Source: Deltaproteobacteria bacterium | GTDB taxonomy: Bacteria; Desulfobacterota; Binatia; DP-6 | Reading direction: 5' to 3' | DNA length: 64,000 bases | NCBI GenBank assembly: GCA_005888095.1 | Contig: VBKF01000091.1 | Coordinates: 104,814 to 168,813 of the forward strand | Shown here: positions 20,102 through 23,100 of the stretch, one piece after another | How the letters are laid out: each line of letters begins with the position of its first letter | Position numbering within the stretch: the first letter of the stretch is position 1 | Program-made: the position numbers and the translations under genes | The notes under the pieces: generated by a model | Databases searched by the model: none | Seen by the model: only the letters and a program-made list of their open reading frames with translations | What the model was told of the DNA's origin: nothing

Positions 20102-23100
20102 CGTGGCGGTAGTACTCGACGTCGTCGGGGGTGTCGACGCGGGCGATGGCGCCGAACTGCCTCACCTGACCGCCGTCCGCCATGACGCGCACGGTGACGC
20201 GCTTGCCGGGCGTGAGCCCGTCGGCGATGCCCTCGACGTCGTACACCTCGCGCCCCGTGAGCCCGAGCGAGCCAGCGCTGTCGCCCGGCAGGAACTCGAG
20301 CGGCAGCACGCCCATCCCGACCAGGTTGCTCCGGTGGATGCGCTCGAAGCTCTCGGCGAGCACGGCCCGGACGCCGAGCAGGAGGGTCCCCTTGGCTGCC
20401 CAGTCGCGCGACGACCCGGCGCCGTACTCCTTGCCGGCTATGACGAGCAGCGGGACAGCGTCGGTTCGGTACCGCATGGCGGCGTCGTAGATCGACAGGC
20501 GTTCCCCGCCGGGCAGGTGGAGCGTCCAGCCGCCCTCGACCCCGGGGACGAGGAGGTTCCGGAGCCGGATGTTGGCGAACGTGCCGCGCACCATCACCTC
20601 GTGATTGCCGCGCCGGGCGCCGTAGGAGTTGAAGTCCTTCGGCTCGACGCCGAGCGAGATCAGGTAGCGGCCCGCGGGGGCGTCCGCCGGGATCGAGCCC
20701 GCCGGCGAGATGTGATCGGTCGTGATGCTGTCGCCGAGGAGCGCCAGCACGCGCGCGCCCCGCACGTCGGTCGGCGGCGTGGCCGCCGGCCCCATCCCCT
20801 CGAAGAAGGGGGGGCGCTTGATGTACGTCGAGGCCGGGTCCCAGGCATAGAGGTCGCCCGCCGGCACCGGCATCGACCGCCAGTGCTCGTCCCCCTCGGA
20901 GACGCGGGCGTACTCCTCGCGGAAGAGCTCCGGCTTGACCGCCGCCATCGCGGCCGAGACCTCCGCCGGCGTCGGCCAGACGTCGCGCAGGAACACGGGC
21001 CGCCCGTCGCGACCCGTGCCGAGCGGGTCGCGCTCCGGATCGAAATCCACGGTGCCGGCCACCGCATAGGCGACGACCAGCGGGGGGGATGCGAGATAGT
21101 TGGCGCGCACCAGCGGATTGATGCGGCCCTCGAAGTTGCGGTTCCCCGACAGGACGGCCGCCGCGACCAGGTTCCCCTGCCTGACCGCGGCCGCCACCGG
21201 CTCGGGGAGCGGCCCGCTGTTGCCGATGCAATTGTGGACCGCGACCGTGCCGGCGATGAACGAATGCACACCCTCGACCGACAGGTCGAAGACCTGCCGC
21301 CTGCCCGCGCGTCGGCGTTCCAGCAACTTGAGCGTCATAATCGGGAAGGCCGTCGCGTCCTTCTCCACGCAGTAGTGCTTCTCGGATGGTGTCTCGGCTC
21401 GCGAGCAGAGAGGCGCGAACCAGTCGCGGGCGCCGATCTCCCGGAGCGTCTCTACCGGCGGCGGAAAGCCGCAGCTTTCGCGGTGCAGCGGTCGAAACTT
21501 GCGGTCGCCCGGCGCTGGCAGGCGGTCGAAGCGGTCGTGCCCCGTCAGGAGGGAGTAGTGCGGGTACACGACGGCCTCGGATTCGCGAAGTCTTGCGCCG
21601 ACCAGTTCACGGGCCTGCCTGAACGACATGCCGGGCCGGTCGCGATGCAGCTCGCCGAGCCGGTTCGCCATCCACTGCCGCTGCCGGTGGATGCCGTCCA
21701 CGGTCCGCCAGTAGACGGCCGCCGCGCTCGAGCGCAGCGATTTGTCCACGCAGTAACGGAAGCCGACGCGCTCCACGAACGAGAGCCCGTCCGAGAGCTG
21801 CAACCGAATTTCGAGCCACCCGCCGTCCGCGGCTGGATAACTCGACGTGGCGCGGCGCACCGGGAATTCGTACACGCGAGCGCCCTCCGTCTCGACCCCG
21901 CAGCGGCCGAGGAGCTGGACGAGCTGGTCCATCACCCGCTTCATCTCCGCGGCGTGCTCCGGGCGCGCGGTCTGGGAATACGCCGGCCGTTCCAGGATGG
22001 AATTCTCCTCGCGAGCGCTCTGCCGTTTCAGCACCGGCGCCGTGCCGTCGGCCCCGAAGACGCCGCCCAGGAATTCGCGCACGACCGCGACGGGGCAGTT
22101 CGCATCCAGCACGAAGTCGGGCAGCCGGGGCGGCTGGTCGATCCGCCGCCCGACTCGCACGCCGGGCAGCGCGACGATCGCACGCGTGAGCTCGCTCGGC
22201 AGCACGATGCTCCATTTCCGCTCGTCGTACCGCATGCCGCTCGGACGCTTGCCGGTGACTACCTCAATGTCGTTCAGCACCGCCTCGCGATCGACCGCCT
22301 GCCCGACGTTCATCCGCCCCTGACCGGCGACGCTGATCGAGCCGTCGCCGAGCAGGTGACCGAGCAGCCGGGCGAATGCCAGCATGCGGAGCCGCTCGTG
22401 CGGCCCGCTCATCGTGAAGATCATCCCGCCGGCGCGGAGCGCGTAGCCCCTCTCATCGGCGCCAGCTTCGTCGACGGGCGATTCCAGGCCGACGACGACG
22501 CGATCCTCGTCGGGCACGAGCTCGTCGGCGCGTACCCATCGACCGTCCGAGCGGAGGATCGCGTGGTCGGGGGTGCAAACGAGCTCGCGGCCGTCCTGCA
22601 ACACGAGGGCGACGCAGTCCTGTTCGCCCTTCGCGTACGCTCCCGACTGGATAGCGGGCGTGAGCCGGCCGTCCGCGGTCGGCCCGAACACCACTGCACC
22701 GCCGGCTTCCGGGAGCTCCTCGATGCGGCGAGACGTGCCGTTGGCGAGCAACACCGGCGTTCCGGCCGCTAGGCACGTCGTGCAGCCGTAGCCGACGAGG
22801 TGGAAGCCGAGCCGCTCGAGGTCGGGGAGGAGCCCCGCGGCGTCGAGGTAGCGGGTCACGACCTTCGAGCCCGGCGCGAGGCTCGTCTTGACCCATGGCC
22901 GCACGCGGAGCCCGCCGGCCGCCGCCTTGCGGGCGAGGAGTCCCGCGGCGAGCATGACCGACGGGTTCGACGTGTTCGTGCAGCTGGTGATCGCCGCGAT
23001 CACGACCGAGCCGTCGCGCAGCTCGCCGCGCTCGCCGCCCATCTCGACGGGCACGCTGCGGCCCTCGGCCGGCGCGTCCTTGACGAACTCCTTGAGCGCC

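Follow-up and report, generated by a model that had tools for sequence, protein, structure and literature searches.

A predicted self-splicing intein between likely iron-sulfur ligands of aconitase A in a Deltaproteobacteria genome

The DNA analysed here, referred to as the window, is a 64,000-nt stretch from the genome of a Deltaproteobacteria bacterium (assembly GCA_005888095.1, contig VBKF01000091.1, positions 104,814 to 168,813). Its acnA gene very probably harbors a full-length intein with a predicted LAGLIDADG endonuclease, situated between two likely ligands of the iron-sulfur cluster in the only aconitase gene that could be found in this genome, and predicted to splice itself out of the protein product. 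We infer that the main mechanism at work combines constitutive self-splicing with homing.

Results

An aconitase gene with an in-frame insertion

The acnA gene of the window is a single open frame on the minus strand, encoding one long precursor. The precursor scores 1317.6 bits against the TIGR01341 aconitase_1 profile (cut-off 945), in two stretches, which assigns it to the AcnA equivalog. Human IRP1 (2b3x) aligns with precursor residues 31-504 and 1017-1405, on either side of the insert. The junctions read GYGCTT/CLAAGTPV at the N-terminal end and TVAVHN/CIGNSG at the C-terminal end, and the predicted spliced AcnA has a length of 895 aa. A 515-residue intein in acnA between 21231 and 22775 had been proposed from the nucleotide sequence (hereafter, the original prediction); these coordinates proved exact, on the minus strand. 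The splicing residues that it listed (Cys1, the TPDH block B, the terminal HN and the +1 Cys) were likewise all found and are conserved in an alignment of 36 rows comprising the window and 35 genome loci.

In this alignment, the class 1 intein residues Cys1, T68, H71, D497, N515 and Cys+1 are present in every row and the penultimate His in 32. The Pfam Intein_splicing profile matches all 36 rows at E<=0.01; on the window it yields 32.4 bits with the whole precursor, below the cut-off of 35.8, and 36.4 bits, above it, with the intein plus 10 residues on each side. The predicted structure contains the HINT fold of class 1 inteins, with residues 1-7 modeled at a predicted local distance difference test (pLDDT) score below 50, as well as the fold of a LAGLIDADG homing endonuclease. 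Two LAGLIDADG motifs, set by eye, carry acidic residues that are conserved in 36 (D144) and 35 (D243) of the rows. The intein was found to be under purifying selection. Two profile results below cut-off aside, all sequence features tested mark the element as an intein. Its parts are as follows.

20049..24281, minus strand: acnA precursor frame (N-extein, intein and C-extein), 1410 aa without a stop; TIGR01341 above cut-off
22776..24281, minus strand: N-extein, residues 1-502, with C-terminal GYGCTT; from the junction
22980..22982, minus strand: Cys434, predicted first [4Fe-4S] ligand; from the alignment with human IRP1
22782..22784, minus strand: Cys500 (extein position -3), predicted second [4Fe-4S] ligand; IRP1 alignment, C in 36/36 rows
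21231..22775, minus strand: intein, residues 503-1017, 515 aa; from junctions and homologues
22773..22775, minus strand: intein Cys1 (Cys503), predicted splicing nucleophile; C in 36/36 rows
22563..22577, minus strand: block B CTPDH, intein residues 67-71; C67, T68 and H71 in 36/36 rows
22335..22370, minus strand: first LAGLIDADG-type motif, RLLGHLLGDGSI, intein residues 136-147
22044..22076, minus strand: second LAGLIDADG-type motif, EFLGGVFGADG, intein residues 234-244; D243 in 35/36 rows
21231..21308, minus strand: blocks F and G, intein residues 490-515, with Asp497 and the terminal His514-Asn515; D497 and N515 in 36/36 rows, penultimate H in 32/36
20049..21230, minus strand: C-extein, residues 1018-1410 and stop, with N-terminal CIGNSG; from the junction
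21228..21230, minus strand: Cys1018, +1 nucleophile and predicted third [4Fe-4S] ligand, position 503 after splicing; IRP1 alignment, C in 36/36 rows

Cys434, Cys500 and Cys1018 stand opposite cysteines of human IRP1 that we take to be its cluster ligands. By this alignment, the intein would part the second predicted ligand from the third, and the +1 nucleophile would itself be the third, as originally proposed. The N junction of the precursor, GYGCTTC, has the same letters as the mature motif, with Cys1 of the intein at the sequence position that the third ligand would take. Cys-3 of the extein and this Cys1 make up a C-T-T-C pair, both members of which are found in 36 of 36 rows. The further claim that splicing is a prerequisite for the cluster had been reasoned rather than read from the sequence, and the precursor would hold intein Cys1 in the ligand's sequence position. 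Besides Cys1, intein residues Cys67, Cys227 and Cys292 are cysteines in all 36 rows, and Cys54 in 35.

The segment that separates the endonuclease core from the C-terminal splicing part (intein residues 340-470, approximately 21366-21758, minus strand) spans about 130 residues, has no Pfam match and displays a conserved pattern, PHYSLLEGHDRFSRLP...PLHRxSCGFPSP. Folded by itself, it reached a pLDDT of 66.7, too low for a structure search. This segment may serve to contact DNA. The idea that it holds a conserved metal site was considered and discarded: Cys435 is present in 29 and Cys469 in 31 of the 36 rows, so that the putative site is not invariant.

Neighboring acnA are thiC (24345-25982, minus strand; above profile cut-off) and a frame (18998-20101, minus strand) with a weak, below-cut-off cytochrome c-like match near its N-terminus. 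A second intein signal lies in the same genome outside the window (G000:C177:414-1877, corresponding to L008 and L009; PF14890 above cut-off), in a frame that reads by eye like a replicative DNA helicase.

Aconitase genes in the carrier genomes

The window's genome is listed as 100% complete with 2.37% contamination. Apart from acnA, a single gene in it matches PF00330. This second gene scores above the cut-offs of NF001614 (aconitase/3-isopropylmalate dehydratase large subunit) and hacA_fam, below those of the aconitate hydratase and leuC equivalogs, and adjoins both a leuA-like frame that stays below cut-off and a small subunit of the LeuD family that exceeds it. Its subfamily scores and these neighbors make it most likely a leucine-pathway enzyme. 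The AcnB profile cut-off was not reached in this genome, and no aconitase other than the interrupted AcnA was found with the PF00330, subfamily and AcnB profiles. Splicing is therefore likely to be needed for the tricarboxylic acid (TCA) cycle of this organism. Among 20 other carrier genomes, AcnA stands alone in four (G401, G409, G413 and G419), and 16 have at least one further, unclassified member of the family. In eight carrier genomes (G400, G402, G405, G406, G408, G410, G414 and G418), an extra aconitase-family frame of about 610-700 aa is present, possibly a second aconitase.

A widespread element at a single site

When 7990 candidate proteins were scored with the intein as query, 890 homologues were obtained at E<=1e-3, which argues that the acnA intein is more than a chance occurrence. 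The Pfam Aconitase domain is found in all of the best 120 of these 890, which include the window's own protein (P0002) and bear names such as Blastocatellia, Pyrinomonadaceae, Ktedonobacterales and Eiseniibacteriota. Junctions were cut by pattern in a set of 120 proteins (P0001-P0121 minus P0002, with P0001 the window's own). In 114 of them this released inteins of 514-544 residues, all starting with Cys1 and ending with HN (98), SN (14), LN (1) or TN (1); the other six have variant or truncated junctions.

Scanning genomes with one intein sequence as query gave five pattern matches and no relative; a scan with the intein alignment, whose patterns lie within the endonuclease part, identified 45 loci. 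Every one of these has at least one aconitase junction at the same site (N junction in 41, C junction in 41). Judging by record titles, the loci belong to Omnitrophota, Chloroflexota, Planctomycetota (Gemmataceae), Pseudomonadota, Eisenbacteria, Nitrososphaerota and one "Deltaproteobacteria", and thus span at least six phyla by title, the Nitrososphaerota archaea among them. The original prediction had hinted at rarity; 890 protein homologues and 45 genome loci refute this, the element being common in environmental AcnA sequences. One of the homologues (P0107) already bears the name "aconitase A/intein/homing endonuclease".

Carriage is patchy. Counting strong matches (>=290 bits), carriers make up 1 of 395 genomes sampled from the window's phylum, namely the window's own, with six more matching weakly at the first 100 residues of the intein. 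The class to which a Ktedonobacterales carrier belongs has 11 carriers among 47 genomes, or 23 once weak matches are counted; for the class of an archaeal carrier, the figures are 4 among 300, or 9. The new carriers in these two classes were called by the intein match alone. All three denominators are genomes, whether or not the non-carriers have acnA.

In the one archaeal carrier contig checked, an archaeal rpoB scoring above cut-off lies next door. Two archaeal carriers, L053 and L059, share a gene order: a long thioredoxin-like protein, an MFS-like transporter (read by eye), acnA and a branched-chain aminotransferase, with rpoB following in L059. A viral carrier was also sought; of 23 pattern matches in viral contigs, which lie in the endonuclease part, none proved related by tblastn. 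Endonuclease-free mini-alleles were found neither among the 114 cut-out inteins nor among the strong matches in the class of the Ktedonobacterales carrier; the genome-scan patterns would miss such alleles, since they fall in the endonuclease part. One copy in that class, G423, lacks about 37 residues.

Empty sites and discordant histories

Seven genomes of the same family, the window's included, were searched. Two of them (G001 and G006) carry the uninterrupted motif GYGCTTCIGNSG in exteins that are 75-77% identical to the window's; the empty site is thus seen directly. In G005, the first 25 intein residues are followed by the contig end; in G002, G003 and G004 the site lies outside the coverage. 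The extein tree groups the window with its empty-site family (100 in the Shimodaira-Hasegawa-like approximate likelihood ratio test).

Intein and extein identities to the window were compared for 14 of 119 other proteins. The intein is the more similar part in P0007, P0008 and P0009 (intein 76%, extein 60-62%), P0010 (75% and 63%) and P0033 (66% and 50%). In P0011 the values are 74% and 78%, in P0004 87% and 95% (over 550 aa), in P0005 80% and 78%, and in P0006 80% and 79%. Comparison of these two groups indicates that intein similarity does not always track host similarity. In the intein tree, six archaeal rows form one clade (support 99) inside a Ktedonobacteria set. The extein data reject a grouping of archaea with Ktedonobacteria (approximately unbiased (AU) test, p 0.018), the grouping having been picked after the tree was seen. 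Repeated entry into archaea, as judged from extein polyphyly, was considered as well and is unsupported, since monophyly of the six archaeal exteins is not rejected (AU p 0.225). The GC content at third codon positions amounts to 0.955 for the extein and 0.87 for the intein; set against each other alone, these values offer weak support for a later arrival of the intein.

Discussion

Splicing and homing

The conserved residues and the predicted fold suggest the following course. Aided by the Thr and His of block B, Cys1 would attack the Thr502-Cys503 bond; Cys1018 would accept the N-extein and Asn515 would cyclise, leaving an 895-aa aconitase with a contiguous GYGCTTCIGNSG that is able to become active. 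In an acnA without the intein, the endonuclease would cut this same conserved stretch, into which the element would be copied; this would explain the empty sites in relatives and the observed spread over bacterial phyla and archaea. The likely reason for the choice of site is that the cluster motif varies little and that the enzyme would not survive an imprecise loss. The empty sites in two family genomes, together with the discordance between intein and extein similarity, make it likely that the element moves by homing.

Several observations weigh against this account or parts of it. Both splicing and cutting are predictions from sequence and fold, and the LAGLIDADG_3 profile (PF14528) reaches E<=0.01 in 11 of the 36 rows and is not significant on the window's own intein (13 bits; cut-off 22.5). 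The window's nearest relatives, P0004, P0005 and P0006, fit vertical descent too. Across pairs of the 36 rows, intein and extein identities are correlated (r 0.62), so the two have a partly common history within phyla. The grouping of archaeal with Ktedonobacteria inteins has a support of 90 and is not starred, and the AU result above leaves repeated entry into archaea not shown. All 45 record titles denote metagenome-assembled genomes, so misbinning is possible; among the seven members of the Ktedonobacteria set are L037, titled Chloroflexi, and the possibly misbinned L070, which is titled Proteobacteria and sits with Ktedonobacteria in the intein and extein trees alike. Finally, the frame is broken inside the intein in 2 of the 45 loci (L060 and L077), which may be decayed copies or assembly errors. 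These breaks are what one would cite in favor of a dead insert, that is, a non-splicing element or an artefact of assembly. In the window itself, such a reading is very improbable: the frame is open, the splicing residues are intact, there are 890 homologues and selection is purifying, and a non-splicing element would leave the genome devoid of any aconitase that could be found.

Possible control of splicing

Constitutive splicing with homing might be overlaid by redox control. Oxidation would join Cys500 (Cys-3) and Cys1 in a disulfide and thereby halt splicing at its first step; aconitase would then be made only when its oxygen-labile cluster survives. This layout is the one reported for the redox trap of the Pyrococcus abyssi MoaA intein. 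We nonetheless consider such a gate rather unlikely. Cys-3 is probably a ligand forced by the host, which would preserve it in any case, so its conservation is silent on gating; the low-confidence residues 1-7 of the model span Cys1. Moreover, the bacterial cytosol is mostly reducing.

A second possibility is feedback by the cluster or by metal: the nucleophile would be hidden by iron, zinc or a nascent cluster bound to Cys434, Cys500 and Cys1, and splicing would wait for release or reduction. The identity of the precursor N junction with the mature motif speaks for it, as does the inhibition of other inteins by zinc and copper reported in PMC8529194. Yet the predicted site would have to form despite 515 inserted residues, and we regard this scheme as improbable.

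A wider proposal would make the cross-domain aconitase intein family a redox or metal switch: in the precursor, Cys-3 and Cys1 would imitate the C-T-T-C pair of ligands, oxidation or metal would keep an unspliced, protected store, and reduction would free the cell's only TCA-cycle aconitase. We consider this rather unlikely. That splicing is a control point, as the original prediction held, is plausible, its importance being supported by the lack of any other aconitase found in the genome; a Cys-3/Cys1 disulfide would be a more specific route than the redox or metal sensitivity named there.

What sets this intein apart is the conjunction of a central-metabolism host, a +1 nucleophile that is a likely cluster ligand by alignment, the genome's only found aconitase, and recurrence across bacterial phyla and archaea. 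The many natural acnA pairs with and without the element could serve as a testbed for whether inteins regulate their hosts. In Escherichia coli, loss of aconitase causes glutamate auxotrophy, so a simple growth assay should be feasible on such pairs.

Relation to known inteins

Inteins are biased to proteins of DNA metabolism, metabolic enzymes also being among their hosts, according to a review (PMC7765530). No described aconitase intein was found in the open-access literature, judged mostly by title, with subscription literature and InBase outside this scope, and "aconit" does not occur in the excerpts of intein reviews examined.

By sequence, the closest solved splicing domains are those of DnaB (4o1r, E 2.8e-8) and the RecA PI-MtuI chains (best E 2.4e-6); these inteins share about 20-33% identity with the acnA intein and occupy other hosts and sites. 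By predicted fold, the closest are 1mi8 and 5i0a. PI-SceI, PI-PfuI and TliVMA resemble the acnA intein in their two-part build, a splicing domain around an endonuclease, but lack the extra Pfam-less stretch at residues 340-470. Their structures 7qss, 1dq3 and 1ef0 are among the top Foldseek matches of the whole predicted model, with about 11-15% identity and TM-scores, by query length, of 0.23-0.30.

Two systems come closest in layout. The MoaA redox trap of P. abyssi (Callahan et al. 2011, as relayed in reviews) involves, like the arrangement in acnA, a Cys at extein position -3 and the catalytic Cys1, in a host described there as inactivated by oxygen. The Mycobacterium tuberculosis SufB intein, whose splicing is reported to be inhibited by an oxidative Cys1/Cys+1 disulfide (PMC8529194), shares the link to iron-sulfur biology; SufB, however, is a cluster-assembly protein, whereas the +1 Cys of the acnA intein aligns with a likely ligand of a TCA-cycle enzyme. 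The acnA intein differs from that of MoaA in its host, aconitase, and in its lineage, being found in several bacterial phyla and some archaea. The MoaA site, presumably, also lies within an iron-sulfur cysteine motif. The acnA intein has the cysteines for both the MoaA-type (Cys-3/Cys1) and the SufB-type (Cys1/Cys+1) disulfide, a resemblance in layout. In conclusion, the intein is real, and acnA appears to offer a new host and a new site for a known kind of element.
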